The notes under the pieces: model-generated
What the model was told of the DNA's origin: nothing
The model's input: only the letters and a program-made list of their open reading frames with translations
The model's database searches: none
Assembly: GCA_043817485.1 (NCBI GenBank)
Contig: JBDRGX010000135.1
Coordinates: 1-18,200, forward strand
Direction of reading: 5' to 3'
Length of the DNA stretch: 18,200 bases
From: JBDRGX01 sp043817485 [NCBI: bacterium]
Lineage (GTDB): Bacteria > JBDRGX01
Made by a program: the position numbers and the translations under genes
Part shown: positions 1-15,398 of the stretch, in pieces
Numbering within the stretch: the first letter of the stretch is position 1
How the letters are laid out: every line of letters starts with the position of its first letter

Positions 1-42
1 TTGCATCTCCTTTTTTTTTTATTTTTTTTTATTTATAGTATA
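1..42 (-). promoter_or_regulatory. Start region of a leftward gene lying outside the window
   Basis: Read on the minus strand, this stretch has TATACT/TATAAA boxes (plus-strand 32-42), then a long A-run, then AAGGAG (complement of 7-12) close to the window edge. The spacing puts a start codon at about position 1 or just beyond. The AUG inside the window (complement of 4-6) directly follows GGAG and is too close to serve. This is inferred from signal layout only, because no coding sequence of that gene is visible. Confidence 0.4.
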
Positions 43-99
43 AAAAAGGGGGGAGAAGCAAATAAAATCTTAATAATTGCTAATAATAAGCATTTTAAA

Positions 100-130
100 G
101 CGTATTGTCAAAATACTTTTGACAATACGC
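100..130. repeat. Perfect inverted repeat, 14-bp arms and 3-nt loop
   Basis: The arms GCGTATTGTCAAAA (100-113) and TTTTGACAATACGC (117-130) are exact complements around TAC. No T-run follows on the plus strand, so a plus-strand terminator is unlikely. On the minus strand the hairpin is followed only by a short CTTTAAAA. It sits where the 5' end of the next gene remnant should be. It could be a protein-binding palindrome, a mobile-element end or a poor terminator. Confidence 0.7.
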
Positions 131-266
131 AAGAGAGATCAGAGATAAGTTATATGAAGAAAATAAAGGGAAGGGCTTAAAAGAGTTTGCCGATATTCTG
201 GTAAAAGAAGCTCATGAAAGTTTATTGTGGAAAAATATTAAAATTCCATACACAAAAAATCGTTAA
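123..266 (+). pseudogene. 3' remnant of a small gene, no start codon
   Basis: One frame is open from the stop at 120-122 to TAA at 264-266 and encodes 47 residues. They include KGLKEFADILVKEAHESLLW and end in KIPYTKNR. The composition looks like real protein, with charged helical residues and Glu/Lys spacing. There is no AUG, GUG or usable UUG early in the frame, and the upstream side is replaced by the inverted repeat at 100-130. I do not recognise the family. It ends five bases before the attC-like site at 272, which is where a cassette gene normally ends. It is most likely a 5'-truncated cassette gene. Confidence 0.4.
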
Positions 267-271
267 AGTTA

Positions 272-335
272 GCTTAACCAGTTGTTCAAGCGGATGTAGC
301 AAAAAGATGCTACACCGTTCAACTCTGCGTTAGAC
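272..335 (+). mobile_element. attC: Integron attC-like recombination site
   Basis: The site begins with GCTTAAC (272-278), which fits the R'' consensus RYYYAAC, and ends with GTTAGAC (329-335), which fits the R' consensus GTTRRRY. Between them is an imperfect hairpin. GTT (284-286) and AA (288-289) face TT (318-319) and AAC (321-323), with C287 opposite C320 and an unpaired G290. CGG (291-293) pairs with CCG (315-317), and TGTAGC (295-300) pairs with GCTACA (309-314) around an 8-nt loop. An unpaired G in the L'' arm is the extrahelical base typical of folded attC sites. The 64-bp length is within the normal range. The preceding open frame stops five bases upstream, as in gene cassettes. No integrase gene is in the window. 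Confidence 0.7.
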
Positions 336-605
336 TTAAAAGAAAGGGTGTTAAAATATTACTCGGGCGTTAAGAGAACAGGCAGGCGGAAAATAGTATC
401 CAGTAAGCTATCGCTCTGGCGTAAGATATCAATCAAGCCTAACGAGGTGCTGCACTTAACAGCGGGAGATGGATCTCGTGATTAAGGTTTTTAAGTTTAT
501 CAACATTTTATCTTGCACATAAAGGTTAGTGGTTATTCTCCCCACTGTACGTGAGCTTATTGTTGAGTGTAACAGGAAAATTCCTTTATTGAGGGAAAAT
601 ATTAA
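336..605 (+). other. Non-coding cassette debris with one R''-like box
   Basis: There is no convincing reading frame here. GCCTAAC at 437-443 fits the attC R'' consensus RYYYAAC. It is followed by CTTAA...TTAAG arms enclosing GAGAT-GG-ATCTC (466-477). No matching GTTRRRY box lies at the right distance, so any attC here has lost its right half. Just before it, GTAAGAT (421-427, 'ggcgtaagat') differs by one base from an R' box. GAGGG at 591-595 is the likely ribosome-binding site of the next pseudogene. Confidence 0.35.
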
Positions 606-1106
606 ATGGCGTTTATTACCATGGAAAATCTGGAAATTACTAGTTCGCAGGAAAATAAATCTTTCCATCAGAAAACAATCATGATATTTACTGAGGGAAC
701 GATTATGGGTCCCCGTCATTGGTGGGATTGGCCTTTTGATAAAAAATATATACAGATTAATAATTGTGTAACAAAGATTATGAAATGGAAACAACAAAGC
801 GTAAAAATTGTTTATCTCACTTCACGCACAAGGATGAAAGATATAGAGAAGATAAAAGAGAATCTACTAATAAACGGTTTTCCAGGTACACGCCTCTATT
901 TTCGAGGACATAAGGAAAGATATAGCCGAGACGGTTATTCCTGCCGTTTTGGTGGAAGATGATTGTAGAAGCATTGGTGGCAAGTGGCAAATGGTAATTA
1001 CGTATATACGACCGGAAATACGAAAGCGTATTAAGTGATTGTGGTAAAAGAATTTAATGGTATAGACCATTTACCTGACACACTGTCAAGTTTACTTGAA
1101 TATTGA
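606..1106 (+). pseudogene. Frameshifted small conserved protein, HAD-like
   Basis: Three consecutive frames join into one recognisable protein of about 165 residues. The first (606 to about 914) contains IFTEGTIMG, KIVYLTSRT and FPGTRLYFRG. The second (from about 916) reads KDIAETVIPAVLVEDDCRS, then IGGKWQM and RPEIRKRIK, and meets TGA at 1036. The third (from 1038) reads IVVKEFNGIDHLPD and stops at TGA 1104-1106. From memory, this order (TxEGT, LTSR, FPGT, IEDDC-SIGG, IVVKEF-GIDHLP) matches a widespread family of small uncharacterised proteins resembling HAD phosphatases. The two shifts at about 914-916 and 1036-1038 make it a decayed gene or a sequencing error. GAGGG lies about 10 bases before the AUG, though M25 could be the original start. 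The attC-like site at 1137 follows the end closely, as expected of a cassette gene. Confidence 0.65.
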
Positions 1107-1112
1107 CAAATA

Positions 1113-1132
1113 AATAGGGACAGATACCTATT
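1113..1132. repeat. Short palindrome AATAGG...CCTATT
   Basis: AATAGG (1113-1118) and CCTATT (1127-1132) are exact complements around GACAGATA. The word 'ATAGGGACAGATACCTATT' resembles short dispersed palindromes often seen in candidate-phylum and deltaproteobacterial intergenic DNA, some tied to IS200/REP-type transposases. That link is from memory and unchecked. It lies between the pseudogene stop and the attC-like site. Confidence 0.45.
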
Positions 1133-1136
1133 AAAA

Positions 1137-1191
1137 GTCTCAGTCGTTGGAGCTTACTCGCTTCGCTCGCAGCTTAGCTCAGTTGTTAGGT
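1137..1191 (+). mobile_element. attC: Degenerate attC-like site
   Basis: The right end GTTAGGT (1185-1191) fits the R' consensus GTTRRRY, and AGCTCAG just before it resembles a normal L'-spacer. GAGCT (1150-1154) pairs with AGCTC (1176-1180) around a CGCTTCGC-containing loop, a loop motif common in known attC sites. The left end GTCTCAG (1137-1143) fits the R'' consensus only if an AA was lost (GTCT-AAC). The 55-bp length is slightly short. It lies 30 bases after the end of a cassette-like pseudogene. It is weaker than the site at 272 and relies partly on that context. Confidence 0.45.
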
Positions 1192-1564: not shown

Positions 1565-4450
1565 TTACTTCATTTGTCTCCAATTGACAACTCGAGTAGT
1601 AACTGAACTTGGCACTGAAATACCACCTTCTCCTAATAAAGTTCTCCCAATAGTAGCATCATAAGTAATTGTTCCAAAATTCTTTATTTCTGCTTTTCTT
1701 CCACCAATAATACAACCTGTAAAAGATGCTCCTTGTTGTGAAGCTCCAGGAGCTTGAAGAATTGCATCTTTTCCAGCTCTTATTCCAGCCGTTACTGTGA
1801 AATAAGGATTTGCTCCTTCTAAAGTAATACTAACTGTTTCATCTTTAGAAATAAAATATCCGCTAATAGTAATAACTCTATCAGTATTTGTAAGTGTAAT
1901 ATTTTTTTTTGCATAAAAATTTCCTTTAATTTTATCACGGAATTTTTGAGCATCTCTATAAAAACCAAAAAGAATGTTTTCATTACTGCGAGCATAAGTT
2001 AAATCTATTGCAAAATTTCCTGACCATTCAACTGGTTGATTATAAGAAATAAAAGAAATACTACCATTTGTTTCTAATTTTCCACTTATTCCAGCAGTAC
2101 CCGCTGATTGACCAGAAGCAATAATAATACCTGGTTCTACTATATACGGTCTACTAATATCATCACCAATATCTATTATCGGACTTCCGCTTGTTTGATA
2201 ACCACCATTCCAATGAAGAAATCTTACTGTATTGTCTCCTTTGGCTTTCATTTCAGAAATTCCATTAAACACTTGAGCAGATTGATTAGCACTATTTTCA
2301 GAGCTTATAATAATAATATTTCCACCACTATGAAAAATACAATTACCATCTGGATGAGCAGAAATATCCATATCACAAGGAACACTACCACAACCTCTCA
2401 TAAGAATATCTCCATTAGATTTAGCAATAGAATTTTGCATTATTCTCATACGTTGTTTATTAGTAGAAAGAAAAGAAATGCTTTTTTCTGTATAAAATTC
2501 ACATGCCATTATTTCATTTTTTTTTATTGAAGTATGAGCTTCAGAACTCCATTGTCCATTAAGAATAATAATTCCGTTTTTTACCCAACAATCAACATTA
2601 TTTCTTCGTACATTTGTAAAACCATTTGTTCCTTTTGCTTTTATTATTACATTATTTAATGATTGTCCTTGCCAAAGATCATAAATTTCAACATTTTCTC
2701 CTACTTGAATATCTACACTTGCAAAACCTATACCACGAGCAACATGATGATTAAAAGCAATAAAAGATTTAGGAGTTCTAATTTTAAGTTTATTAGTTGA
2801 AGAACTTCCTGTTATGTATTGAGAACCTTTTCCATTAGCAACAATATAGATATTCCCTTGACTATGTAATGAACTATTAATATGATGATAAGCAGGTGCA
2901 GTTACATCCATTCCTTTACAAATAACAATACCAGCATTTTCTAAAACTCTTTCTCTTGGACTACCTGCATCAATGGTATAATTCATCATTCCAGAACTTC
3001 TTAATTCTATATAAAGACCACTTGAAATACGATCTCCACAATCAAAAATTATTGCTCCACCACTATGAATAGAATTTTCATTTCCTTCTGAATAAATACC
3101 TTGATCCCATGGAGATTGAGCAAGAAACATAAAATTACCATTAGTTTTTATATTAACTTTTTCATAAAAATAAGTATAAGTTGTAGAAGGAGGTTTCATA
3201 GTAAAATTACCTTTTGCTTGAAATCTACCATATAAATAATAAGCAGAATAATTAGTAAAATTTCCATAAGTATAAACTTGAAGATTTCTAAGCAAATTAA
3301 TTGATTTCCCTTGTTCACTATTAAAAAAAATATTCCCACCTGCTAAAAGACTTATTTCAGTTTCTGTTGAAGAACCTTCAATACGCACAGTACTTTTATT
3401 ATCGCAAATATCTTTTTCTGATATTAATCTTCCATTGCTTGTTAAATTTAATGTTATTGAATCACTACTACTACCAGTTCCAATATAAATATTTTCAGTA
3501 GTATAGTATGTTTTGTTAATAGTTTGCCAAGATTGGGTAAAATTAATATCTGTTGTGTAATATGTACCATCAGCAATGGCTTTTGCTTTATAATAAGCTA
3601 AATTAGATGCTTTGTCTCTACCATTAAAATAAGAAGGATCTGATAAATCTGGTGTTAATGGAGATTCAATACTTAAAGAAACAGTATCTGGTAAAGTAAT
3701 TGATGGTGCTGTTAAAACTGGTATTGCATTTATTAATAAAGGAGTTTCTCCAACAGTTTTTACTCTTTTTTCTCTAGTTATTTGCGTTGCTAAAATTCCT
3801 TCTGGTTCTCCATCATGAGTAGTAAGATTACCAGTTATTTTTACTTTATTAGTATATGAACCAGTAAAAACAACTTTTCTATCTGAAAAAATATTTCCCG
3901 TAATAGGAATTTCACTTCCTGGACTATAATTGCAAGTTACTTTGATTTCATTATTCGCATTTCCACCTGTACAACCAAGAACTGGCCAATTTTCAGAACT
4001 ATATACAGAAGATGTTTTTACTACAACATTAAGTCTTTTAGTAACACCACCTCTAAATATAAATCTTCCTGTGTTTTCATTATAACTTTGGAAATTTCCT
4101 CCTACATTTGCTTCAGAAATAATAGTACAATAACCTTTTGCTGGTTTATTTTGTAAAATAATAATATTTAATTTTTTATTTTGTACTTTATTTCTTAATG
4201 TATTATATCCTGTTCCCATTGAAATATTAGATATAGGTCCTGCAATATTAGGATTAGATTTTAATGTTTTTCGAGCATTAGCAATACCTGCTTCAGCTAA
4301 ATGTAAAGCTTGTAAACTTTGTACTTTATCTACTATTTTTTTCCCTCCTTCTTGTATATTATTTGAAAAGTAAATTCCCGCAACAGCAGCAGCAGCCACA
4401 ATAACAAGTACTATTATAAAAACCATTCCTTTTTCATTTTTGTATTTCAT
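1565..4450 (-). CDS. Large surface protein with PilX/prepilin-like N-terminus and repetitive strand-rich body
   Basis: The 961-residue protein begins MKYKNEKG followed by MVFIIVLVIVAAAAVAGIYF, a hydrophobic helix after a Lys/Glu leader ending in Gly. It continues SLQALHLAEAGIANARKTL, which is the minor pilin PilX/GspK-type N-domain pattern, where prepilin peptidase would cut after G8. Residue 5 of the mature form is Ile, not the usual Glu. The rest lacks a known enzyme motif. It repeats short strands around Gly-Asn turns, such as LLAGGNIFFNS, FQAKGNFTMK, IKTNGNFMFLAQ, LHSQGNIYIVANG, FHSGGNIIIISS and LETNGSISFIS, which suggests a beta-helix-like adhesin or tip protein. This is far longer than ordinary PilX (about 200 residues). 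AGGAGG sits eight bases before the AUG. It is a single-gene unit with its own promoter at 4520-4550 and a terminator at 1461-1500. The pilin head is well supported; the adhesin role is inferred. Confidence 0.8.
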   Translation of the reverse strand: MKYKNEKGMVFIIVLVIVAAAAVAGIYFSNNIQEGGKKIVDKVQSLQALHLAEAGIANARKTLKSNPNIAGPISNISMGTGYNTLRNKVQNKKLNIIILQNKPAKGYCTIISEANVGGNFQSYNENTGRFIFRGGVTKRLNVVVKTSSVYSSENWPVLGCTGGNANNEIKVTCNYSPGSEIPITGNIFSDRKVVFTGSYTNKVKITGNLTTHDGEPEGILATQITREKRVKTVGETPLLINAIPVLTAPSITLPDTVSLSIESPLTPDLSDPSYFNGRDKASNLAYYKAKAIADGTYYTTDINFTQSWQTINKTYYTTENIYIGTGSSSDSITLNLTSNGRLISEKDICDNKSTVRIEGSSTETEISLLAGGNIFFNSEQGKSINLLRNLQVYTYGNFTNYSAYYLYGRFQAKGNFTMKPPSTTYTYFYEKVNIKTNGNFMFLAQSPWDQGIYSEGNENSIHSGGAIIFDCGDRISSGLYIELRSSGMMNYTIDAGSPRERVLENAGIVICKGMDVTAPAYHHINSSLHSQGNIYIVANGKGSQYITGSSSTNKLKIRTPKSFIAFNHHVARGIGFASVDIQVGENVEIYDLWQGQSLNNVIIKAKGTNGFTNVRRNNVDCWVKNGIIILNGQWSSEAHTSIKKNEIMACEFYTEKSISFLSTNKQRMRIMQNSIAKSNGDILMRGCGSVPCDMDISAHPDGNCIFHSGGNIIIISSENSANQSAQVFNGISEMKAKGDNTVRFLHWNGGYQTSGSPIIDIGDDISRPYIVEPGIIIASGQSAGTAGISGKLETNGSISFISYNQPVEWSGNFAIDLTYARSNENILFGFYRDAQKFRDKIKGNFYAKKNITLTNTDRVITISGYFISKDETVSITLEGANPYFTVTAGIRAGKDAILQAPGASQQGASFTGCIIGGRKAEIKNFGTITYDATIGRTLLGEGGISVPSSVTTRVVNWRQMK

Positions 4451-4519
4451 TTTATTTTCCTCCTTTTTCTATGAAAAAGATATTTTCATATTTAATTTAT
4501 TTTTATTTCTTTCTATTTA

Positions 4520-4550
4520 ATTATAGTGAAAAATAAGGTAGAAAAGTCAA
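4520..4550 (-). promoter_or_regulatory. Sigma70-type promoter of the pilin-like gene
   Basis: On the minus strand TTGACT (complement of 4545-4550) is followed, after 19 bases, by a perfect TATAAT (complement of 4520-4525). It lies about 70 bases upstream of the AUG at 4450. The spacer is longer than the ideal 17 bases. A 20-bp perfect A/T palindrome (4549-4568) overlaps the upstream edge of the -35 box and could be an operator or an UP-like element. Confidence 0.55.
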
Positions 4551-4630
4551 ATTATTTTAAAATAATTTTTAAAATAATTTTTTTTTGGTGAGAATATTGA
4601 TAAAAAAATGTAAAGTTTTTTTGAAATGGC

Positions 4631-4830
4631 TTAATACCAATTTGCATTCAAAATGATAATAAGGCGAAAAAAAATAAAAATTATGAATTTAAAATTAGTC
4701 AAATAACACAGTTGATAACAAAGCCAACACAGTTAGCGTTAAAATTCTTCACCTTGAACCGACGATTTAAATCGTCGGTTCACCATATAAGTAGAAAATC
4801 CTTTGATTTGTTTAATACCAATTTGCAATT
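4631..4830 (+). repeat. Dispersed non-coding repeat, copy 1
   Basis: The unit opens with TTAATACCAATTTGCATTCA (from 4631) and contains GCCAACACAGTTAGCGTTAA (4723-4742). The first 16 bases recur exactly at 4812-4827. Both conserved words return in inverted orientation at 9740-9762 and 9588-9611, each with about two mismatches, while the DNA between them differs. This copy contains the long palindrome at 4755-4782. It fills the gap between panD and the pilin-like gene. Conserved ends with a variable core suggest a small non-autonomous element, and no transposase is seen. Confidence 0.65.
4755..4782. repeat. 28-bp perfect palindrome
   Basis: The half-site TGAACCGACGATTT is followed directly by its exact complement, with no loop. 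It sits inside the dispersed repeat, in A/T-rich DNA, and no T-run follows on either strand, so it does not look like an ordinary terminator. It may be the structural core of the repeat or a dimeric protein-binding site. Confidence 0.75.
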
Positions 4831-4847
4831 AAAAATAAAACAATATA

Positions 4848-5207
4848 TTATTTACTTTTTATTATTTTATTATTTTCATCTAAAAGAACTATACTTGGTT
4901 TTATTTTATCTAAATCATCTTCTGAAACTAAAGCATAAGCAAGAATACAAAGTTTATCTCCAATTTGTCCTCGTCTTGCTGCTGGACCATAAAGAATAAT
5001 AAGTCCAGAATTTTCTTTTTCTTCTATTACATATGTTTCAATTCGTTCTCCATTATTTAAATTAAGTACATGTACTTTTTCATAGAGAGCAATATTGCTT
5101 TTTTTTATAATTGCTTTATCTATACCAATACTACCTTTATAATATAATTCTGTTTTACTAATAGTTGCTTGATGAATTTTAGATTTTAAAAATTCTCTTA
5201 AAATCAT
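4848..5207 (-). CDS. panD: Aspartate 1-decarboxylase
   Basis: PanD makes beta-alanine from L-aspartate for pantothenate and CoA synthesis in the cytoplasm. It is made as a proenzyme that self-cleaves to form a pyruvoyl group. The 119-residue length fits the family. The family motifs are in place: LKSKIHQATI with catalytic Lys10, ELYYKGSIGID with the Gly25-Ser26 cleavage site, NNGERIETYV with Thr58-Tyr59, and GPAARRGQIGDK. AAGGAG lies seven bases before the AUG. It is the last gene of the leftward run, 53 bases after the outer-membrane protein gene. That gap is T-rich with no clear promoter. No other pantothenate gene is in view. Confidence 0.95.
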   Translation of the reverse strand: MILREFLKSKIHQATISKTELYYKGSIGIDKAIIKKSNIALYEKVHVLNLNNGERIETYVIEEKENSGLIILYGPAARRGQIGDKLCILAYALVSEDDLDKIKPSIVLLDENNKIIKSK

Positions 5208-5260
5208 TTATGATCTCCTTTTTATATTTAATTTTTTTTTGTTTATTTTTTCTACAGAAG

Positions 5261-6532
5261 TTAAAAACTATATTGTATTTTTGTTGTAAATAAAAAATTT
5301 ATTTCTTCAATTTTTTCAGTAGAATACCATCTATAAGCATAAGATGACCATAAAAAAAATTTCCACAAAGAATTTAATCGCCAAGTGAAATCAAAAGAAG
5401 TTGTATTCCCCCAATATTTTTTATTAGAATAATTTTCATCAAAAGGACATTTATTTTTTTCTAAATCAGTAATTACTTCCCAATAAAAAATTTTATTTTC
5501 ATATTGAATAGAAAAAGGTAATTTTCTTTTTAAATATGAATATGTCGGATCAGTTTCATCTTTTTTTTTCTCTCTTACATAAGATATTTTAAAAATAAAA
5601 TTTTCTAAATTATATTCTATTTCTGGTTCAAATTTTAATAAAAAAGAATTAGTATTATATTCATCTGGTTTTGCATAATCTTCTATTTCCATTTCATTTT
5701 TTAAGTTTGTTTTTAAATTCGAAAACAAAGGAAATTTAAAGTTTAGTAAAGCATTTTGTTCCCAAAGTTTATTTTTATCCGAAGAATTATAATAGTTTTT
5801 TATTCTCATTTCATATTCTAAATCCAAATTAATTTCTGTATTAAAAGTTTGTTCAAAATCTAAAGCCATTCCGTATTCTTCATAATTTTTTGAATTTTTT
5901 TGAGGAATTTCTTCTTCTGCATAAAGATCAGATAATAAATCAAAATCTTCTTGGCTTAATTCTTCAGCAAAAGAAAGCATTTTAAAAATCAAATAATCAA
6001 CTCCAATATTAATATTTGTATTAAAAAAAATAGCATAATCTAAATTTGTTTTAATTTGATAAGAATTATAATCATAATTAAATGAATTTGGATTTTTAAA
6101 TTTATTATACTTAAATTCATTCCCTAATTCTAATGAAAAATCATCTAAAAAAATAAAATTAAATGCAAAATTAGCTTTTTCATTTATTTCATTATTTCCT
6201 TGTTGAGATTTTTCATAATAATGTGAAAACAAAAATTCATTAGAAAATTTAAAAAAAATATCATCAGAAAAATTATAATTAAAATTACTTAATAATTCCC
6301 CTTCTGCATATTTTTTTGTATGTTGTAAATTAGTTTCAGTTTCTAATAAAGTTTTTGAAAAAAGATTAAAAGATTTTTCCAAATTAAAAAAAATTTTTTC
6401 TGCCCATTTTTTTTCTTCATAAATACTATAATAAGAATAATTTTCATTCATTTTTATATAGCCCTTATAAGATTTAGCATAAATAGGGCTTATGAAAATA
6501 TTTATAAATAATAAAATAAATAAAAAATTCAT
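5261..6532 (-). CDS. Predicted outer-membrane beta-barrel protein
   Basis: The 423-residue protein starts MNFLFILLFINIFISPIYA, a signal peptide likely cut after Ala19. The mature part is a series of alternating aromatic/hydrophobic and polar strands (for example NFNYNFSDDIFFKFSNEFLF and EINLDLEYEMRIKNYY) separated by Asn/Asp/Glu-rich turns. It ends in TTKIQYSF, and a C-terminal Phe is the usual barrel-assembly signal. I do not recognise a specific family; transport or surface-structure roles are open. Its AUG overlaps the stop of the upstream regulator gene as ATGA, so the two are translationally coupled and probably linked in function. Confidence 0.75.
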   Translation of the reverse strand: MNFLFILLFINIFISPIYAKSYKGYIKMNENYSYYSIYEEKKWAEKIFFNLEKSFNLFSKTLLETETNLQHTKKYAEGELLSNFNYNFSDDIFFKFSNEFLFSHYYEKSQQGNNEINEKANFAFNFIFLDDFSLELGNEFKYNKFKNPNSFNYDYNSYQIKTNLDYAIFFNTNINIGVDYLIFKMLSFAEELSQEDFDLLSDLYAEEEIPQKNSKNYEEYGMALDFEQTFNTEINLDLEYEMRIKNYYNSSDKNKLWEQNALLNFKFPLFSNLKTNLKNEMEIEDYAKPDEYNTNSFLLKFEPEIEYNLENFIFKISYVREKKKDETDPTYSYLKRKLPFSIQYENKIFYWEVITDLEKNKCPFDENYSNKKYWGNTTSFDFTWRLNSLWKFFLWSSYAYRWYSTEKIEEINFLFTTKIQYSF

Positions 6533-7842
6533 TTTAATTCCTTTTTTAATTTTTCCAATTTTGAATATAAAGATCTTCGTGTAATTCCTAATAAATTAGC
6601 TGCTTTACTTTTATTTCCTTTTGCATTTTCAATTGTTTTAAAAATAAAATTTTTTTCTAATTCTTCAAGAGAAATTTCTTGTGAATGTGCAGTATCTGAA
6701 TTTTCTATAAATTTATTTTGAATATATAAAGGAAAATGATCAAGTGTAATCAATGATTCTCCAGCAAGAATAGTAGCTCTTTCTATAATATTTTCTAATT
6801 CTCTAATATTCCCAGGCCAATGATAATTTATTAAACAATTTAATGCTTCACAAGTTATTTTTGAAGATGGTTGATTTAATTTCGAAAGAAAATGAAAAAC
6901 AAGTTCTGGAATATCTTCTTTTCTTTCTTTTAAGGAAGGAAGAAAAATAGGAAATACATTAAGACGATAATATAAATCTTCTCTAAATAAATTTTGTTTT
7001 ATAGCATTTTCTAAATTTTTATTAGTAGCAGTAATAATTCTAACATCTGTTTTAATAGTAGTAATTCCACCTAATCTTACAAATTCTCGTTGTTGTAAAA
7101 TTCTAAGAAGTTTTACTTGAATTCCTAAAGAAATTTCTCCAATTTCATCTAAAAATATAGTTCCTTCTTGAGCTAATTCAAATCTTCCTTTTTTTGTTTC
7201 ATTAGCTCCAGTAAAAGCACCTTTTTCATAACCAAATAATTCACTTTCTAATAATGTTTCTGGTAAAGCAGCACAACTTACATCAATAAAAGGTTTATCT
7301 TTTCTTTTACTATTGTAATGAATATTTCTTGCAATAATTTCTTTTCCAGTTCCACTTTCCCCTCTTAAAAGCACTGTAGTATCAGTATCAATTACTTTTG
7401 AAACCATTTCAAAAACTTTTTTTATACTACTACTTGTACCAATTACAGTATCAGATTTATTTTTTTCATTTTTAAAAAGATTTTTTTTTCTTTCTTCTAT
7501 TTTTTTTATTTTAAATTCTAATTCATCTAAAGGGAAGGGCTTAATAATATAATCATAAGCACCTTTTTTCATTGCATCTACAGCATTAGTAACACTTGCA
7601 TAAGCTGTCATTATAATTATATCTATGGAATAATCATATTGTTTTATTTTTTCAAGTAAAACCAAACCATTCATATCTGGCATTTTAAAATCAGTAATAA
7701 CCAAATCAAATTTTAATTTGGTTATTTTTTCAAGAGATTGTGTTCCATTATAAGCAGTTTCTACTTTATGTCCATTTTTTTCTAACATCATTTTTAAAAT
7801 TTTACACATTTTTTCTTCATCATCAACAACTAATATATTCAT
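6529..7842 (-). CDS. NtrC-family sigma54-dependent response regulator
   Basis: The 437-residue protein has all three parts of an NtrC-type activator. The receiver domain (1-120) has the acidic pair Asp7-Asp8, phospho-acceptor Asp51 in VITDFKMPD, Thr79 and Lys101. The AAA+ domain (about 133-360) has Walker A GESGTGKE at 161-168, the sigma54-contacting loop GAFTGA at 208-213, and Walker B GTIFLDEIGE at 227-236. The Fis-type helix-turn-helix (about 390-437) has NKSKAANLLGITRRSLYSKL. Phosphorylation by a sensor kinase would let it open sigma54 promoters. No kinase gene is adjacent. It lies 28 bases after recJ and overlaps the outer-membrane protein gene. Its targets cannot be told from the window, as I found no clear TGGCAC-N5-TTGCA site. 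Confidence 0.95.
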   Translation of the reverse strand: MNILVVDDEEKMCKILKMMLEKNGHKVETAYNGTQSLEKITKLKFDLVITDFKMPDMNGLVLLEKIKQYDYSIDIIIMTAYASVTNAVDAMKKGAYDYIIKPFPLDELEFKIKKIEERKKNLFKNEKNKSDTVIGTSSSIKKVFEMVSKVIDTDTTVLLRGESGTGKEIIARNIHYNSKRKDKPFIDVSCAALPETLLESELFGYEKGAFTGANETKKGRFELAQEGTIFLDEIGEISLGIQVKLLRILQQREFVRLGGITTIKTDVRIITATNKNLENAIKQNLFREDLYYRLNVFPIFLPSLKERKEDIPELVFHFLSKLNQPSSKITCEALNCLINYHWPGNIRELENIIERATILAGESLITLDHFPLYIQNKFIENSDTAHSQEISLEELEKNFIFKTIENAKGNKSKAANLLGITRRSLYSKLEKLKKELK

Positions 7843-7870
7843 AATCTATTTCATTACCTTTGTTATTATT

Positions 7871-9565
7871 TTAGACTATTCCTTCAATATCTTCTATTTT
7901 TAATTGAATAGAAGATACATTTTGAAAAGTATTAATGCTTGGAGAATAAACTAAATTTATTTTAGAAAAATTTTCTTTTTTAAAATAATCTGCTAAACCA
8001 AACCCAATTGCTTCTCTTATTAAAGTTCCTTCTTTAACTAATAATTTCACATGAATTCCTTTTAATATTTGAGGATAGCCCATAATTTGTAATCCAGTAC
8101 TTAAAAAAATAGGTCGTGGATTAGAAATACCAAAGGGAGCAAGCATATTTATTTCTTTAATTAAATCAAAATTTACTTCTTGTAAAGAAATAGAAGCATC
8201 TATTTTAATTTTTGGTTTAGATAATTCTTGAGATAAATTTTTTTCTGCATATTCTTGCATATTTTCATTAAATTCTTCTATTTTTTCTGCTTGAATTTCT
8301 AATCCAGCAGCTAATTTATGTCCTCCAAAACTTTTCAAAAAAGAACTACAAGATAATAAAGATTTGTATATATGAAATTCCGATATACTTCGAGCAGATC
8401 CTTTTCCTTCTCCATTTACAATACTAATAATAATTGTTGGTTTTTTATATTTTTCAACAATTCTTGAAGCAACAATTCCAATAACCCCAATATGCCAATC
8501 CTTATTAGAAATAATTAATATTTTTTGATCTTTTAATTTTTGTGATGATTCGATTTTTTCTACTGCTTCTTCAAAAATTTCTTTTTCAATACTTTGACGA
8601 ATTTTGTTTTTACAATCTAAGTCATTAGAAATTTGCAATGTTTTTTTTTCATCATTTGTAATAAACAACTCTACAGCTTCTTTTGCATCGCTTAATCGCC
8701 CTAAAACATTTATTCGAGGACCTAAAATAAAACTTAAATGATAACTTTCAATATTTTTATTTAATCCAGCTATTTTTTTTGAAGATGTAATTCCTAAATT
8801 AGAATTTTTGTTAATTACTTCAAGTCCTTTTTTAACTAAAGTTCTATTTTCGTTTATAAGAGGAGATACATCAACAACAGTTCCTATGCTTACTAAATCA
8901 AGAAAATTAAAAATTTCTTTTGAAGAGGGATCAAGTTTAGAAAAAAGACATTGGCTAAGTTTAAAAGCAACTCCTACTCCTGCTAAATCTTTAAAAGGAT
9001 AATTATCATCTTTTCTTTTTGGAGAAATAATTGCAAGTGCTTCTGGTAAATTTTCTTTTGCTTCATGATGATCAGTAATAATAACATCTAATCCTATTTT
9101 TTTAGCATATAATATTTCAGAAAAAGAAGTAATTCCACAATCAACTGTAATTACTAATGAGTATCCTTGTTTTTTAATTTTTTCAAGAGATTCTTGATTT
9201 AACCCATAACCTTGATTAAATCGTAATGGAATATAATCATCAACATTTATTCCAAAATGTCTAAAAGTTAATATTAATAAAGAAACACTTGTAATTCCAT
9301 CAGCATCATAATCTCCATAAATAATAATTTTCTCTTTTTTGTTAATTGCTTGTAAAATTCTATCACAAGCAATATCCATATCTTTTAAAAGAAAAGGAGA
9401 ATGAAGTGTATCTAAAGAAGGGGTTAAAAAATTTTTAATATCTTCTAAAGAAGTTAATTCACGATTAATTAAAATTTGAGATAAAATAGAAGAAATATTT
9501 AATGAATTAGAAATTTCTTCTTGAAGTAATGTTTGCTTTGGATAAATATACCAATTATCTTTCAT
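7871..9565 (-). CDS. recJ: Single-stranded-DNA-specific exonuclease RecJ
   Basis: RecJ degrades single-stranded DNA 5' to 3' in recombination and mismatch or base-excision repair. The 564-residue length suits the bacterial enzyme. DHH-superfamily motifs appear in order: IIYGDYDADGITS (around 82-94, metal-binding Asp residues), VITVDCGI (138-145), VIITDHHEAK (161-170), a later SARS motif, and FGGHKLAAGLEI in the DHHA1 part. A longer frame begins at 9586, but I chose the AUG at 9563-9565. AAGGA lies about six bases before it, and the extra seven residues fall in a dispersed repeat. The gene is separated from tonB by that repeat and from the regulator by 28 bases. Confidence 0.95.
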   Translation of the reverse strand: MKDNWYIYPKQTLLQEEISNSLNISSILSQILINRELTSLEDIKNFLTPSLDTLHSPFLLKDMDIACDRILQAINKKEKIIIYGDYDADGITSVSLLILTFRHFGINVDDYIPLRFNQGYGLNQESLEKIKKQGYSLVITVDCGITSFSEILYAKKIGLDVIITDHHEAKENLPEALAIISPKRKDDNYPFKDLAGVGVAFKLSQCLFSKLDPSSKEIFNFLDLVSIGTVVDVSPLINENRTLVKKGLEVINKNSNLGITSSKKIAGLNKNIESYHLSFILGPRINVLGRLSDAKEAVELFITNDEKKTLQISNDLDCKNKIRQSIEKEIFEEAVEKIESSQKLKDQKILIISNKDWHIGVIGIVASRIVEKYKKPTIIISIVNGEGKGSARSISEFHIYKSLLSCSSFLKSFGGHKLAAGLEIQAEKIEEFNENMQEYAEKNLSQELSKPKIKIDASISLQEVNFDLIKEINMLAPFGISNPRPIFLSTGLQIMGYPQILKGIHVKLLVKEGTLIREAIGFGLADYFKKENFSKINLVYSPSINTFQNVSSIQLKIEDIEGIV

Positions 9566-9574
9566 TTTTTCCTT

Positions 9575-9762
9575 ATACCAAATCACATTTAAACGCTAAA
9601 TGTGTTGGCTTCTTGTGTCCCCCGCTGGCGGGGATGTCCGTTAGGACGGGGGTGGAATTCTTTAATACATATTCGTCGCCTTCTTCTTGTGCCTTGTTAT
9701 TATATGAAATTTTAGATTTTGGATTAAAAAATCTCATATTTTTGAATACAAATTAGTATTAA
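9575..9762 (-). repeat. Dispersed non-coding repeat, copy 2 (inverted)
   Basis: Read on the minus strand, it opens with TTAATACTAATTTGTATTCA (from 9762), two mismatches from copy 1 at 4631. It closes with AAGCCAACACATTTAGCG (complement ending near 9588), again nearly the same as 4721-4740. The far end (plus strand 9574-9590, TATACCAAATCACATTT) loosely resembles an inverted copy of the opening word, so the unit may have imperfect terminal inverted repeats. It also holds CACATTTA-AACGC-TAAATGTG (9584-9604). Its core differs from copy 1 and contains the GC-rich hairpins at 9619-9652. It lies between tonB and recJ and reaches the recJ ribosome-binding site. Confidence 0.65.
9619..9652. repeat. 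GC-rich nested hairpins in the dispersed repeat
   Basis: CCCCGC (9620-9625) pairs with GCGGGG (9628-9633), and GTCC-GTTA-GGAC forms a second hairpin (9636-9647). Alternatively CCCCCG (9619-9624) pairs with CGGGGG (9647-9652) to enclose both. This is the most G+C-rich stretch in the right-hand 13 kb. With no T-run it is not a typical terminator, though it could weaken read-through from tonB to recJ or shield RNA ends. Confidence 0.6.
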
Positions 9763-9785
9763 AAATTCTATTAATTATTTTTTGT

Positions 9786-10514
9786 TTATTTTAATATATA
9801 TTTTAATGGAATTATTCCCCATTGTCTTTCTTGTTTTGCATTTCGAGGCAAAGATTCAAATCGCCATTTTTTAAGTATTTCAATTGCTTTTTTTTCTAAA
9901 TTTGTATCTCCTTTTTGTAAAGGAATTACAGTACTTACTCTGCCATCAGGTTCCACCCAAAATTTTAATGAAATAGCAATTGCAATTTGTTTTGAATGTT
10001 CAAATTTTTCACGATGAATTATATTTCTTTTTGCTTCTGTTATTGGGCCAGATATATTTAATTTACCAGCAAATTCTCCAAATTGAGCCGCATTTTCAAC
10101 ACCAGCTGGTTCAGTATAAACTAATTTTTCAATTTCTTGTATTTGTGGAGCCACAGCTTTTTCTATTTCTTTTAAATTATTAAAAATAGGTTTAGATTCT
10201 TTTTTTTCTAATGGTTTTTCAATATCTTTTTTGAAAATACTAAATTTTTCTTTAGTAATTATATTTTTTTCTTGCTCAATTTTAACATCTGTAAAATTTT
10301 CTTTTTCAGTTAAAGATTTTATTTGATAAGGTACTTGAGATTTGTATTGTAAAGAACCTTGTGGAAATAAACTTGTACCAATAAGTTCTACTTCTGTTAA
10401 AGTATAAACCATTTTTTTTTGATAAACACTAAACAAAGAAATAGAAACTAAAATAAGTATATGAATTCCTAAAGAAATTAAAAAAGCAATATTTTGTCTT
10501 GTATCTTTTAACAC
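9786..10514 (-). CDS. tonB: TonB-like energy transducer
   Basis: The 242-residue protein would span the periplasm and pass proton-motive energy from ExbB/ExbD to outer-membrane transporters. It has a short cytoplasmic start, one membrane helix (about 10-30, AFLISLGIHILILVSISLFS) and a Lys/Glu/Pro-containing linker. The C-terminal TonB-type domain includes ISLKFWVEPDGRVSTVIPLQ, KKAIEILKKWRF and WGIIPLKYIL. The start is GUG with GGAG eight bases upstream. It lies 14 bases after exbD, completing the exbB-exbD-tonB order. The linker is not strongly Pro-rich. No TonB-dependent receptor of the plug-barrel type is in the window. Confidence 0.85.
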   Translation of the reverse strand: MLKDTRQNIAFLISLGIHILILVSISLFSVYQKKMVYTLTEVELIGTSLFPQGSLQYKSQVPYQIKSLTEKENFTDVKIEQEKNIITKEKFSIFKKDIEKPLEKKESKPIFNNLKEIEKAVAPQIQEIEKLVYTEPAGVENAAQFGEFAGKLNISGPITEAKRNIIHREKFEHSKQIAIAISLKFWVEPDGRVSTVIPLQKGDTNLEKKAIEILKKWRFESLPRNAKQERQWGIIPLKYILK

Positions 10515-10528
10515 GATAATATCTCCAA

Positions 10529-10942
10529 TTATCTTAATTCTTTAGGTTGTGTAGCAATAGCTAATTTTTCAACACCTACTATTTTACCAATATCCATTAC
10601 TTTTACTACTAAACCATGACGAGTATTTTCATCGGCTTTAATAATTAAAATTTTATCTTTAGAAAAAGAAATAAGCCCTTTAAGTTTTTTAGGTAAATCA
10701 ATAATACTGATTGGACTATCCATTAAATATATAACGCCTTCTTCTGTAAGAGAAATAACAATTTCTTTTTCCAATTGTGCTTCAGAACTTACAGTAGAAG
10801 GTAAATTTACTTTTATTCCTGGTTGCATTACAAAACTTGAAGATAAAATAATGAAAATAAGAAGTTGAAAAACTACATCTACTAAAGGAGTTAAATTAAA
10901 TTGAAAAGATGAAATATCTAAATCAGTTTTTTTAAACTTCAT
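10529..10942 (-). CDS. exbD: ExbD/TolR biopolymer transport protein
   Basis: The 137-residue protein is the pore-lining partner of ExbB. A short N-terminal tail leads into [20 protein letters not shown], the ExbD/TolR membrane helix with the proton-carrying Asp (Asp22). A periplasmic domain follows, with [34 protein letters not shown] and KLAIATQ. A longer frame starts at 10978, but the AUG at 10942 matches the usual N-terminus and has AAGGAAAAG just upstream. It overlaps the 3' end of exbB by 11 bases, consistent with coupled translation. Confidence 0.92.
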
Positions 10943-11564
10943 TTTCTTTTCCTTTTGATAAAAATTCCACAAGTTCACTAGAACTTTTTTCCATATCTAA
11001 TACAAATTTATTTACATTAGATATTAAATAATTATATCCTACTAAAGTAGGAATAGCCACAATTAAACCAGCAACAGTAGTTAATAAAGCTTCCCAAATT
11101 CCACCAGCCAAAACACTTGCATTTACTTGTCCACCCATGCTTTCTATTTTCATAAATACCTTTACCATTCCTAAAACAGTACCTAAAAAACCTAATAAAG
11201 GAGCAATTGTTCCTATTGTGGCAAGAGCTCTCATATATCTTTCTAATACTGGAACTACTTGATTTCCAGTATCTAAAATAGATTCTTTTATCTCTTCTCT
11301 ATTTTTATCGCTTTTAGATATTCCAGATTTAAATATTTGAGCAACTGGACTTTTTGAACTTTCACAAATAGCAAGTGCTTCTATTTTTTTATTTGCTTTT
11401 AAATAAATTCTAATTTGCAAAATAAAATCAACTGTTTCTTTTTTTATTTTACGAAGATAATAAAATCTTTCTATAAAAATAGTAAGAGCAAAAAGAGAAG
11501 AAATCATTATAAATGGCATACAAATACCACCTTTTTCAAAAATCCAAAATATATTACTACTCAT
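10932..11564 (-). CDS. exbB: MotA/TolQ/ExbB proton channel protein
   Basis: The 210-residue inner-membrane protein has three expected membrane segments. One is near the N-terminus ([20 protein letters not shown]). Two are in the core, [20 protein letters not shown] and [20 protein letters not shown], the conserved MotA/ExbB signature region. A cytoplasmic helical stretch lies between the first and second. I chose the AUG at 11564, with AGGAGG eight bases upstream, over the longer frame from 11591. It is the first gene of the leftward run. ExbB versus TolQ cannot be fully separated by sequence, but the tonB-like third gene favours ExbB. Its promoter lies somewhere in 11565-11797, where I see no clear leftward -35/-10 pair. 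Confidence 0.92.
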
Positions 11565-11715
11565 TATTTTAAGCCTCCTGTTATTTTTCATATGTTTACA
11601 AATAAAAAAAATATTTTTTGTATTTTTTTTACTATTATTTTTAATAAGTCAAGAAAAAACACAAACTTTATTAAAAATTAAAAAAACTATTTTTCAAGCA
11701 ATATTTTCTTAAAAC

Positions 11716-11744
11716 TTGACAAAATAAAAATTTATTATTATTTT
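11716..11744 (+). promoter_or_regulatory. Possible promoter of the ABC-F run
   Basis: TTGACA (11716-11721) is followed after 17 bases by TATTTT (11739-11744), four of six matches to the -10 consensus. The downstream UUG start is at 11798. The boxes overlap the inverted repeat at 11718-11747, so a protein bound to the repeat would block them. The whole stretch is A/T-rich, so a chance match is possible. Confidence 0.4.
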
Positions 11745-11754
11745 GTCTTTTTTT
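11718..11754 (+). terminator. Hairpin plus T-run in the divergent region
   Basis: GACAAAATAA (11718-11727) and TTATTTTGTC (11738-11747) are perfect 10-bp complements around a 10-nt A/T loop, followed by seven T (11748-11754). The form is that of an intrinsic terminator, but no plus-strand gene ends just upstream. It may instead be an attenuator in the leader of the ABC-F transcript or an operator over the promoter at 11716. The stem is weak, with only four G-C pairs. Confidence 0.4.
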
Positions 11755-11797
11755 ACAAGTAATTTATTTTTAATAAATAATAAAAAAGGAAGTAATT

Positions 11798-13759
11798 TTG
11801 ATTCAAATACAAAATATATCTAAATCTTTTGGAGGAAAAGTTTTATTCAATAATTGTAGTTTATTATTGCAAGATAGAGAAAAAATAGCGATTGTTGGTG
11901 CTAATGGTACTGGGAAAAGTACTTTTTTTAAAATTATTATGGGGGAAATTAAACAAGATAAAGGAGAAATAATTATTCCTAAAAACACTAAGATAGGTTA
12001 TCTTCCTCAAGAAATAGTTATTTCTACAAATGAAACTGTTTTAAATGAAGTTTTATCTTTTTCTCCAGAACTTGTAAAATTAGAAAAAGAAAAGGAAATT
12101 TTGGAACATAAAATTGCCAAAACTTCAGAAAATGATAAAAATTTAAAAAATCTTTTAGAAGAATATGGGACTTTACAAGAATCTTTAGAACATTTATCTG
12201 GTTATGATACAGAATCAAAAGCAAAAAAAATATTACAAGGTTTAGGATTTAATCAAAACGATTTTTCTCGTTATACATCTAATTTTAGTGGTGGTTGGTT
12301 AATGCGAATTGCATTATCTAAATTGCTTTTATTGTCTCCAAATATTTTACTTTTAGATGAACCAACAAATCATTTAGATTTATATTCTGTAATTTGGTTA
12401 CAAGAATATTTGCTTTCTTATCCTGGAACTATTATTTTTACTTCTCATGATAGGGATTTTGTAAATAAAGTAACAACAAAAATATTAGAATTAGAAAATA
12501 GTCAAATTACAAGTTTTAGTGGTAATTTTGATTTTTATCAACAACAAAAAAAACAAAGATTAGATTCATTAATTTCTGCGAAAAAAAATCAAGATAGAAA
12601 AATAGAGCAATTAGAAAAATTTATTGAAAAATTTAAAGCTAAAAATACAAAAGCCACTCAAGCAAGAAGTAAAATGAAAATGTTAGAAAAAATGGAAAAA
12701 ATAGAATTACCACAATCAACACAACAAATTCATTTCTCTTTACAACAACCAGAACATAAAGGTGGAAAAGAATCTATAATATTAGAAAATATTACTAAAA
12801 AATATGAAGAAAATACGGTTTATAAAAATTTGAACTTAACTTTATATAGAGGAGAAAAAGTTGTTTTAGTTGGCTTTAATGGAAGCGGAAAATCTACTTT
12901 ATTAAAAATACTTGCTGGTGTTTTGAATTTTGATTCTGGACAAAAAAAAACAGGCCATAAAATAAAGATAGCTTATTATGCTCAACATCAATTAGAAATG
13001 CTTAAAGCCGAAAATACTATTTGGGATGAAATTTTAAGTGTTTCTTGTGAATATGATCAAAATTATTTACGAAAAATTTTAGGTTCTTTTTTATTTAAAC
13101 AAGATGATATTTATAAAAAAGTTAAAGTATTAAGTGGAGGAGAAAAAAGTCGTTTAACGCTTGCAAAAATTTTACTTAATCCCCCAAATTTATTATTAAT
13201 GGATGAACCAGTTAATCATTTGGATATTCAATCAAGAGATGTTTTAAAAAATGCATTAAAATTATATACTGGAACATTATGTTTTATTAGTCATGATATA
13301 GATTTTATTCGTGGAGTTGCTAATAAAGTAATAGAAGTTAAAAATGGTCAATTATTCCATTATCCAGGAGATGTGGATTATTATTTTTATAAAAAAAAAT
13401 TAAATGAAACAAAAGTTGTTGAATCTTTAAATATTACAGAAAAAACTCCAAAAATTCAAAAAAAAAAAGAGATTGATTTTAATAAAAAAAAAGAAGCTGA
13501 ACAAAGAAATAAAAAACATCAATTTGAAAAAGAAATAAAAGAAAAATTTGAAAAAGTAGAAAAAGAATTAAAAAAATCAGAAAAAGAATTAGAAGAAATT
13601 AACAATTTATTAATGGATCCAAACACTTATAAAACTCATCCAGACTTTGCTAGTTTGAATAAAAAACAAAAAGAAATAACTATACTTATAAAAAAATTAA
13701 ATGACGATTTTTTAAAATGTTTGGAAAAAATGGAAGAAATTGATAAAGAAATTTTATGA
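11798..13759 (+). CDS. ABC-F family ATPase (Uup/YdiF-like)
   Basis: This soluble 653-residue protein has two ABC ATPase domains and no membrane domain, the ABC-F layout of ribosome-associated factors. Domain 1 has GANGTGKST (34-42), signature FSGGWLMRIALSK and Walker B LLLDEPTNHLDL. A charged linker with ATQARSKMKMLEKM follows. Domain 2 has GFNGSGKST, signature LSGGEKSRLTLAK and LLMDEPVNHLDI. About 100 C-terminal residues are a Lys/Glu-rich coiled coil, as in Uup and YdiF. Val replaces Thr in the second EPTNHLD motif. It starts at UUG with AAGGA seven bases upstream. Family members act in translation or ribosome assembly, and some protect against antibiotics. The subfamily cannot be fixed here. 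Confidence 0.92.
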   Translation: MIQIQNISKSFGGKVLFNNCSLLLQDREKIAIVGANGTGKSTFFKIIMGEIKQDKGEIIIPKNTKIGYLPQEIVISTNETVLNEVLSFSPELVKLEKEKEILEHKIAKTSENDKNLKNLLEEYGTLQESLEHLSGYDTESKAKKILQGLGFNQNDFSRYTSNFSGGWLMRIALSKLLLLSPNILLLDEPTNHLDLYSVIWLQEYLLSYPGTIIFTSHDRDFVNKVTTKILELENSQITSFSGNFDFYQQQKKQRLDSLISAKKNQDRKIEQLEKFIEKFKAKNTKATQARSKMKMLEKMEKIELPQSTQQIHFSLQQPEHKGGKESIILENITKKYEENTVYKNLNLTLYRGEKVVLVGFNGSGKSTLLKILAGVLNFDSGQKKTGHKIKIAYYAQHQLEMLKAENTIWDEILSVSCEYDQNYLRKILGSFLFKQDDIYKKVKVLSGGEKSRLTLAKILLNPPNLLLMDEPVNHLDIQSRDVLKNALKLYTGTLCFISHDIDFIRGVANKVIEVKNGQLFHYPGDVDYYFYKKKLNETKVVESLNITEKTPKIQKKKEIDFNKKKEAEQRNKKHQFEKEIKEKFEKVEKELKKSEKELEEINNLLMDPNTYKTHPDFASLNKKQKEITILIKKLNDDFLKCLEKMEEIDKEIL

Positions 13760-13797
13760 ATTATTTTTATATTGTAATTTTAAAATAAGGGATAAAT

Positions 13798-14913
13798 TTG
13801 TTTAAAGTATCTATTGTAAAATGTGATTCTTATGAATATGAAAAAGTATATGAATCTATAAAAAAATCTATTGATTTAATTGGAGGATTAGAACAATTTA
13901 ATCTTTCTAATAAAAAAGTTCTTTTAAAACCAAATTTACTCAATTCAAAACCAATAGAAAAAGCGGTTACAACACATCCATTAATAATTAAAGCAGTTTC
14001 TTCTTTAGTTAAAAAAGTTTCAGGAAACCCAATTATTGGAGATAAACCTGGTTATGAATCATTGAATAAAGTTTTAGAAAAAACGGGTATTAAACAAATT
14101 TGTGAAATTCCTTATGTGGATTTCAAAGAATTTGTTTCTGTCTCTTGCAAAAACGGATTTTTCAAAGAACATTTAATTGCTCAAGAAGTATTAAATAGTC
14201 CTTTTATTATTAACCTTCCTAAAATTAAAACTCATACACATATGAAACTTACATTATCTATAAAAAATCTTTTTGGTTGTGTTACTCCTCCAAAAAGAAT
14301 TGATTGGCATTTAAAAACAGGAATTCATAAAGAACATTTTGCTACAATGTTAGTAGAATTATATGAACTTATTAAACCACAACTTACTATTGTTGATGGA
14401 GTTATAGGAATGGAAGGAGATGGTCCAAGTTCTGGAGATCCTAAAAAAATTGGATTAATTATTGCTGGAACAAATGGACATTCTGTAGATAGAGTAATTT
14501 CTGAAATTTTAGGCATAGGAAAGAATTTATATACTTTACAAGCAGCGTTAAAAAAAGGTATTAAAGGAATAAATTTAGATGAAATTGAAATTGTCGGAGA
14601 AAATATAGAATCTGTTAAAATTCATAATTTTAAATTTCCAGATACTGAACAAAGTGATATAGGAGTAATAATTCCTGCTTTTTTAAAAATTCCTTTGAAA
14701 AAGTTTTTTACTTCAAAGCCTGTTATTATAGAAAAATTATGCAAAAAATGTAAAGTTTGTTTAGAAAATTGTCCTCCTCATGCAATTACAGAATACAAAA
14801 AAAAATTACAAATAAATTATTCTGTTTGTATTAAATGTTTTTGTTGTCAAGAATTTTGTCCTTATGATGCTATTAAAATAAAAAAAGGGCTTTTGGATCG
14901 ATTGAAATTTTAA
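13798..14913 (+). CDS. DUF362 protein with C-terminal 2x[4Fe-4S] ferredoxin domain
   Basis: The 371-residue protein begins with a DUF362 domain (about 1-300). Its marks are KKVLLKPNLLNSKP, AVTTHPLIIKAVSSLV, IINLPKIKTHTHMKLTLSIK, LFGCVTPPKRIDWH and IVDGVIGMEGDGPSSGDPK. The last 60 residues hold two ferredoxin motifs of type C-x2-C-x2-C-x3-C-P: CKKCKVCLENCP and CIKCFCCQEFCP. It is therefore an iron-sulfur, probably redox, cytoplasmic protein whose substrate is unknown for the family. The start is UUG with AAGGG six bases upstream, 38 bases after the ABC-F gene. The Nudix gene starts two bases after its stop. Confidence 0.9.
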   Translation: MFKVSIVKCDSYEYEKVYESIKKSIDLIGGLEQFNLSNKKVLLKPNLLNSKPIEKAVTTHPLIIKAVSSLVKKVSGNPIIGDKPGYESLNKVLEKTGIKQICEIPYVDFKEFVSVSCKNGFFKEHLIAQEVLNSPFIINLPKIKTHTHMKLTLSIKNLFGCVTPPKRIDWHLKTGIHKEHFATMLVELYELIKPQLTIVDGVIGMEGDGPSSGDPKKIGLIIAGTNGHSVDRVISEILGIGKNLYTLQAALKKGIKGINLDEIEIVGENIESVKIHNFKFPDTEQSDIGVIIPAFLKIPLKKFFTSKPVIIEKLCKKCKVCLENCPPHAITEYKKKLQINYSVCIKCFCCQEFCPYDAIKIKKGLLDRLKF

Positions 14914-14915
14914 TT

Positions 14916-15326
14916 ATGAAAATATTCAAAAAAGTACAAATTTATATTTATAAAAAAAATGAAAATATTCAATACTTGCTTTTAAAAAGATCTTTTTGTT
15001 TAGGAAATTATTGGCAGGGAATTACTGGAAAAGTAGAAAAAAATGAAACTTTTGAACAAGCAGGTATTAGAGAAGCTTATGAAGAAACTGGACTTACAAT
15101 TTTCAATAAAATCATAGGGCCTGTTTCTTTGCAAAATTTTAATAAAAATAATAAAAGTTATCAAGAAGCTGTTTTTGGAATTGAAGTTCAAGAATTAGAT
15201 GTAAAATTGAGTTTAGAGCATACAGAATATTGTTGGTTAAAATATGAAGAAGCATATGAAATGCTATATTGGGATGAAAATAAAAAAGGTTTATTAAAAC
15301 TTAAAGAAAAACTATTGAGTTTGTAG
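14916..15326 (+). CDS. Nudix hydrolase (NudB-like)
   Basis: The 136-residue protein carries a complete Nudix box G-x5-E-x7-REUxEExGU at residues 38-60 (Gly38, Glu44, Arg52, Glu53, Glu56, Glu57, Gly59, Leu60), so metal-dependent pyrophosphate cleavage of a nucleoside-diphosphate-linked compound is expected. YLLLKR followed by YWQGITGKVE resembles NudB (dihydroneopterin triphosphate/dATP pyrophosphatase), which points to folate synthesis or nucleotide cleaning. The substrate is not certain. It starts two bases after the DUF362 stop with no strong ribosome-binding site, so it probably depends on coupled translation. Confidence 0.88.
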   Translation: MKIFKKVQIYIYKKNENIQYLLLKRSFCLGNYWQGITGKVEKNETFEQAGIREAYEETGLTIFNKIIGPVSLQNFNKNNKSYQEAVFGIEVQELDVKLSLEHTEYCWLKYEEAYEMLYWDENKKGLLKLKEKLLSL

Positions 15327-15398
15327 AATTTTTGAAATTATTTTAATGAATTACTTTGTAATAATCTGTAATAAATCCAATTTTGAAATGGTAATAAA

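Follow-up and report, generated by a model that had tools for sequence, protein, structure and literature searches.

A probable end of an integron cassette array beside chromosomal genes of an AT-rich bacterium

The integron integrase IntI captures gene cassettes between attC and attI sites, the latter lying beside the integrase gene intI, as described in PMC9668308. Clusters of attC sites that lack an integron integrase (CALINs), which the same source defines by two or more attC sites spaced at under 4 kb, are well described (PMC9668308, PMC9024848), and according to PMC9024848 draft assemblies split integrons and thereby overstate the number of CALINs. The integrons of archaeal MAGs presented in PMC9668308 come from drafts of uncultured lineages and are mostly CALINs. 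CALINs as well as integrons of diverse phyla and of archaeal MAGs are already in print.

Here we analysed a window, the whole stretch of 18,200 nucleotides under study, of AT-rich bacterial DNA, the first 1,191 positions of which very probably represent the distal end of an array of integron gene cassettes. As in a complete (sedentary chromosomal) integron, candidate attC cassettes of one orientation stand beside chromosomal genes; unlike in a complete integron, intI and attI are not in the window, whose left side, where they would be expected, ends at position 1. Some large chromosomal arrays have uniform attC sites, whereas the candidates found here are 64, 132 and about 58 bp long. With the CALINs of PMC9024848 and PMC9668308 the locus shares attC candidates less than 4 kb apart, a single orientation, short cassettes and no intI in view; it differs from them in that only one of its sites passes a covariance model and in that its left flank lies outside the window, so that "lacking" applies to the window alone. 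It resembles the archaeal-MAG integrons of PMC9668308 in belonging to a draft of an uncultured lineage, yet the hosts of those integrons are archaeal, whereas the TonB, ExbB, ExbD and sigma-54 regulator genes of the window point to a host that is apparently a Gram-negative-type bacterium.

Candidate attC sites, cassettes and their surroundings

The features of the left part of the window, in order of position, are the following.

123 to 266, plus strand: first cassette gene, a C-terminal remnant with no N-terminus in view (P0001, 129 to 266, ending in YTKNR before the stop)
272 to 335, plus strand: attC site 1, 64 bp, both boxes intact, detected by covariance models and by a letter-preference model
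330 to 562, plus strand: putative 233-bp cassette, delimited by the crossovers expected at sites 1 and 2
437 to 568, plus strand: candidate attC site 2, 132 bp, two intact boxes, arms GCT(G)CACTTA / TACGTG AGC
563 to 1185, plus strand: putative cassette of 623 bp, holding a HAD-like gene
681 to 1106, plus strand: HAD-superfamily-like gene in three frames (681-917, 919-1035 and 1038-1106)
1134 to 1191, plus strand: candidate attC site 3, L'' GTT(G)GAGCTT, L' CAGCTT AGC, R' GTTAGGT at 1185-1191
1192 to 1564, no strand: transition from array to chromosome, GC 0.263

The original prediction held that 272-335 fits both simple-site boxes, that it folds with the unpaired G of attC sites and that a gene remnant ends five bases before it, and all three points were borne out. 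The left box RYYYAAC (GCTTAAC, 272-278) and the right box GTTRRRY (GTTAGAC, 329-335) are both exact, and with canonical spacing the site reads R''+5+GTT(C)AAGCGG ... CCGTTC AAC+5+R', matching the general attC layout R''+5+NNN(x)NNNNNN ... NNNNNN NNN+5+R'. In the L'' arm an extra C of the top strand, i.e., a G of the bottom strand, occupies the usual place of the unpaired base of attC, and the L'' and L' arms pair at 7.5 of 9 positions (G-U counted half). The bottom strand folds with -12.2 kcal/mol (z -3.01; 4 of 200 shuffles equally good) and the top strand with -11.4 kcal/mol (z -2.85; 2 of 200 shuffles equally good). As there is no T run 3' of the hairpin, a terminator is not suggested. Judged by its letters, site 1 is as good as certain to be an attC, and its recombination by IntI, with the crossover expected between G329 and T330, is a prediction.

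The gene that precedes site 1 is without its N-terminus because its frame is closed upstream by an in-frame TGA at 120-122, and it ends with the TAA stop at 264-266, five bases 5' of the site. For its product P0001, neither NCBIfam and PHROGs (E<=10) nor Pfam (E<=1) offered a family, and plasmids (E<=10) and the loci compared gave no match. At 100-130, where the frame of this truncated gene opens, lies a perfect inverted repeat (arms of 14 bp, GCGTATTGTCAAAA/TTTTGACAATACGC, around a loop of 3 bases), and the left edge of the window (1-61) carries an imperfect inverted repeat with arms 1-22/40-61, 77% complementary, and long runs of T and G.

Site 2, with both boxes exact and arms that pair at 8 of 9 positions (G-U counted half), is a probable attC. 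Site 3 has a degenerate R'' box, leaving R' only, and an arm pairing of 7.0 of 9 by the same count; its arms make it very likely an attC whose left box was damaged. All three candidates are on the same strand, within 920 bp. Further sites had been predicted to the left of site 1, and further candidates do exist on the plus strand, but to its right; the left side as covered by the window consists of positions 1-271.

With the crossover placed at G|TT, a first cassette would end at 329. The putative cassette at 330-562 contains no ORF of at least 60 aa, and a minus-strand ORF at 456-797 crosses its right end. The HAD-like gene of the following cassette has two frame changes, the third frame being the first frame again, which may reflect either decay or an assembly error. 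Long ORFs from 1565 on are open, including one of 961 aa and one of 934 aa that runs off the end, which speaks against many assembly errors in the rest of the window. Matches to PF03767 (Acid_phosphat_B) were obtained for the ORF 606-959 (E=5.8e-5) and for the joined reading of the gene (E=1.5e-4), both under Pfam's cut-off. No homologues of the HAD-like gene were detected in plasmids, phages or viral contigs or among the loci compared, nor in searches of 297 and 296 genomes that were run without a positive control. When the DNA of 1-1300 was compared with plasmids, 27 records were returned, and among the 20 listed the query coverage was at most 5% and the best E was 0.03.

The GC content is 0.367 in 130-1191, 0.263 in 1192-1564, 0.296 in 1565-4450 and 0.226 in 4451-18200. 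To the right of the array, Pfam identifies aspartate decarboxylase, a sigma-54 response regulator, RecJ, TonB, ExbD and ExbB, and a DUF362 ferredoxin-type protein and a NUDIX protein are also encoded there; by these assignments the genes to the right are ordinary chromosomal genes. A large protein on this side has a pilin-like start, as read from its letters, and no Pfam match. The genes at 1565-4450 (minus strand) and 15399-18200 (plus strand) encode very large surface-type proteins with no Pfam family above cut-off, and a perfect 12-bp inverted repeat (1461-1472/1489-1500) is terminator-like for the former. The absence of an integrase from view, which had been claimed at the outset, was confirmed: none was found among the 12 window proteins scanned with Pfam, a scan outside which the ABC-F-like ORF 11798-13759 and short overlapping ORFs fell, and a search of all six frames of the window with a crude tyrosine-recombinase motif was empty.

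Models of attC and the expectation by chance

The training sites for our attC models were taken from 40 regions around intI genes of the Desulfobacterota group, with the window excluded; in the phylum of G006, a MAG labelled Desulfatirhabdium, an integron integrase passed the TIGR02249 cut-off in 66 of 198 genomes. Covariance model R1 was built from alignment A4, in which nine of fifteen short attC sites were kept, the MAFFT alignments A1, A2 and A3 having been dropped for misplaced right arms. Standard pairs make up 91% of the pair cells of A4, and 9 of its 16 pairs changed on both sides; its covariation score was reached by 0 of 500 shuffles and its count of pairs changed on both sides by 19 of 500. 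R1 gave 58 matches at E<=1 in the 40 training regions, nine of which are its own training sites, and the 46 R1 matches at E<=0.005, located in 18 of the 40 integrase regions, served to build R2.

With both models, whose E-values are rough by a factor of about 5 or more, the best match in the window is 272-335, at 24.9 bits and E=1.8e-4 for R1 and at 23.6 bits and E=3.1e-4 for R2. A significant attC model match at this place had been anticipated, and one is indeed obtained with models built in this analysis. The next R1 match, 2563-2603 (E=0.12), is without L arms, and neither 437-568 nor 1134-1191 is among the 13 window matches of R1 at E<=10. R2 ranks 437-568 second, at 11.2 bits, with E=0.46 for the 18.2 kb and E=0.041 for 1-1600, and its third match, 4713-4744 (E=0.57), is chance-like. 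Near site 3, R2 gives only a 6.8-bit match on the opposite strand and none in the orientation of the site. By covariance model, site 1 only is significant, and sites 2 and 3 are not. Outside the window, 30 other loci (193 kb) yielded no R1 match at E<=10, and 34 viral loci (306 kb) yielded no R2 match at the same threshold. Patterns made from the right arms of sites 3 and 1 were present in 0 viral contigs; the left-arm pattern of site 1 was present in 34 viral stretches, but R2 finds no attC there (E<=10) and this lead was dropped.

The letter-preference model was derived from 25 sites of the Desulfobacterota group picked by eye, with mirror-orientation, weak-arm and viral-locus rows left out. 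Site 1 scores 49.4 bits, compared to a highest value of 30.5 in 2000 shuffles of 1-1300, which contain the sites' own letters. The score of 437-568 is 24.8 bits, which about ten of 2000 local shuffles (1-1300) reached, and 1073-1191, ending at the R' box of site 3 and having a wrong left box, scores 26.7 bits. On both strands of the window these three places, all on the plus strand, are the only ones at which the full model gives at least 10 bits, and the maximum in 200 whole-window shuffles was 19.9 bits. With R'' dropped, which was done post hoc after site 3 had been seen, 1134-1191 scores 38.5 bits against a maximum of 37.4 in 2000 local shuffles; elsewhere in the window this shortened model also scores a place at 9612-9657 (17.8 bits) and one on the minus strand (14.3 bits). 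As the background of the model is the AT-rich letters of the window, GC-richer DNA scores high, and values of up to 33.0 (full) and 31.0 (without R'') were seen in L001-L025 (356 kb, both strands). As to the two or more attC sites of a CALIN, one is significant by covariance model, and a second, site 3, by the letter model without R'' only.

A detector requiring both boxes to be exact and the arms to pair in the fold (at least 16 arm pairs) reported no site in L001-L025 (178 kb), and the same detector returned 14 rows, two places being counted twice, in the loci around Desulfobacterota-group integrases. Among 300 dinucleotide-shuffled versions of the window (5.46 Mb), exact boxes with at least 22 arm pairs occurred twice, or about 0.007 per window. 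A score of boxes and layout without letter preferences was abandoned as not significant, site 1 reaching 27.0 but 35 hits of at least 27 arising in 150 one-strand shuffles; layout alone proves nothing in DNA so AT-rich. Rfam gave nothing at gathering scores in the window, with five sub-threshold matches in 1-1500, and a tRNA/tmRNA search of the window found none.

attC sites and integrases in other genomes

The best-scoring matches to RecJ of the window, 39-45% identical, are those of the MAG "bacterium isolate CSMAG_1171" (L001) and of others of its six-genome group. The RecJ tree assigns the window to no supported set, the shortest path leading to two Clostridia-labelled loci, and searching 96 genomes from the G008 group with RecJ brought no closer relative. 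In seven RecJ regions, several of them only 4-7 kb long, no other window gene stands beside RecJ, and relatives of one part of the 934-aa surface protein occur in four of the six genomes of the best-RecJ group. The original prediction had placed the locus in a lineage where such arrays are little described, a statement that these data do not establish: the tree leaves the window without a supported position, and integrase-less clusters of attC are well known from PMC9668308 and PMC9024848.

In the group with the best-scoring RecJ, R2 matches at E<=0.1 were detected in four of six genomes (16, 9, 1 and 1 matches), and intI over the family cut-off was found in none of the six. Some of these attC matches stand in rows, six at E<=0.1 in L155 (G015:C262) and three in L156 (G012:C311), and L155, read by its letters only, seems to carry IS110-like transposases and, ahead of an attC, a gene pair of toxin-antitoxin type. 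Three genomes (G001, G012 and G014) gave matches to the intI profile in two pieces, with a gap between about profile positions 167-188 and 233-244. The place of the gap is, we presume, that of the integron-specific insert, and such matches are what we would expect of Xer-like recombinases without this insert.

R2 matched at E<=0.1 in 30 of 39 genomes of the Desulfobacterota group, from which its training sites were taken. By a hand count, 18 of these 30 are not among the 71 intI-positive genomes (E<=1e-60), and two of the 39, G027 and G040, are intI-positive with no attC match. Of 61 genomes of a Bacillota-labelled group, taken as control, two had R2 matches at E<=0.1 under filters stricter than those of the six-genome search. 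One of the two carries four attC matches on a single contig (G734:C22:238-4673); according to PMC9024848, integrons are extremely rare in this group. G006 has 40 attC matches and no intI match at E<=1e-60, and its contig C310 holds a 36-position fragment of an integrase start (E=2.1e-4) together with an attC match.

The array end and its alternatives

The proposal that positions 1-1191 are the distal end of a cassette array is supported by the fact that site 1 is the top match to two models built from the arrays of other genomes, and sites 2 and 3 appear to bracket the HAD-like gene as they would a cassette gene. The step in GC content at the right end of the array also speaks for it. Weighing against it, the E-value of site 2 is near that of the chance match at 4713-4744, and site 3 is missed by the models in its own orientation. 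The view that an attC stands behind a truncated cassette gene within an array is sustained by the layout, the letter model and both covariance models. In such an array IntI would act on each attC in its folded bottom-strand form and cleave the right-hand R box between the G and the TT, by which cassettes would be excised or captured. As the three sites share an orientation, attI and intI would be placed leftward, outside the window, the array would read 5' to 3' away from them, and the right-hand chromosome would mark its distal end. New cassettes would enter at attI, and for this reason those on the side of the chromosome would be the oldest. The apparent decay agrees with such an age: the first gene lacks its start, the next cassette holds no gene, the HAD-like gene changes frame twice and the last attC has no proper left box. 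The mechanism is that known of integrons in general, and we infer the polarity and age.

Within the array reading, two forms have to be considered. Tentatively, the array may be a true CALIN, an old attC cluster in a genome without an integrase of its own that would be moved only by an integrase acting in trans. The decayed appearance of the genes and of one attC agrees with this, as do the Desulfobacterota-group genomes that have attC sites and no intI match, which are common (18 of 30), and the combination of attC in four and intI over cut-off in none of the six genomes of the best-RecJ group. However, the window shows one edge of the array only, and with drafts splitting integrons, as stated in PMC9024848, the absence of intI says little. 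It is also conceivable, and we hold this with comparable reserve, that a complete integron was cut by the edge of the window or contig, with intI a number of cassettes farther left. Judging by the way the three sites point, attI belongs on that side, and the window starts inside a cassette, although this end looks decayed and no intI is seen in the window. As drafts split integrons, one site is significant by covariance model and the left flank is outside the window, we give a CALIN and a cut integron equal weight.

It is rather unlikely that a single captured attC cassette, or a fragment of an integron, arrived with another element and that sites 2 and 3 are wholly or partly due to chance. 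The covariance models find one significant site only and lone attC matches per contig also occur in related drafts, but the arms of site 3 exceed 2000 local shuffles, and the three places follow in order on one strand around a gene. That site 1 is a chance hairpin or a terminator which happens to contain both boxes is scarcely credible. AT-rich DNA does produce such boxes and layout fairly often by themselves, but the two model E-values and a letter score of 49.4 bits against 30.5 speak against this reading, and no T run follows the hairpin.

The locus is thus most likely an integron cassette array in an AT-rich bacterium and, in itself, one more array end, for which attC models from Desulfobacterota carry over to DNA of such AT-rich composition. 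A wider thought, to which we give little credence, is that uncultured lineages, this one and the six-genome group among them, maintain numerous attC cassettes, whether singly or as arrays, without an intI of their own, and that another recombinase or integrases from outside would move them. If the finding of attC in four and intI over the cut-off in none of the six genomes holds, this group would be a place to test whether cassettes persist without a resident integrase.
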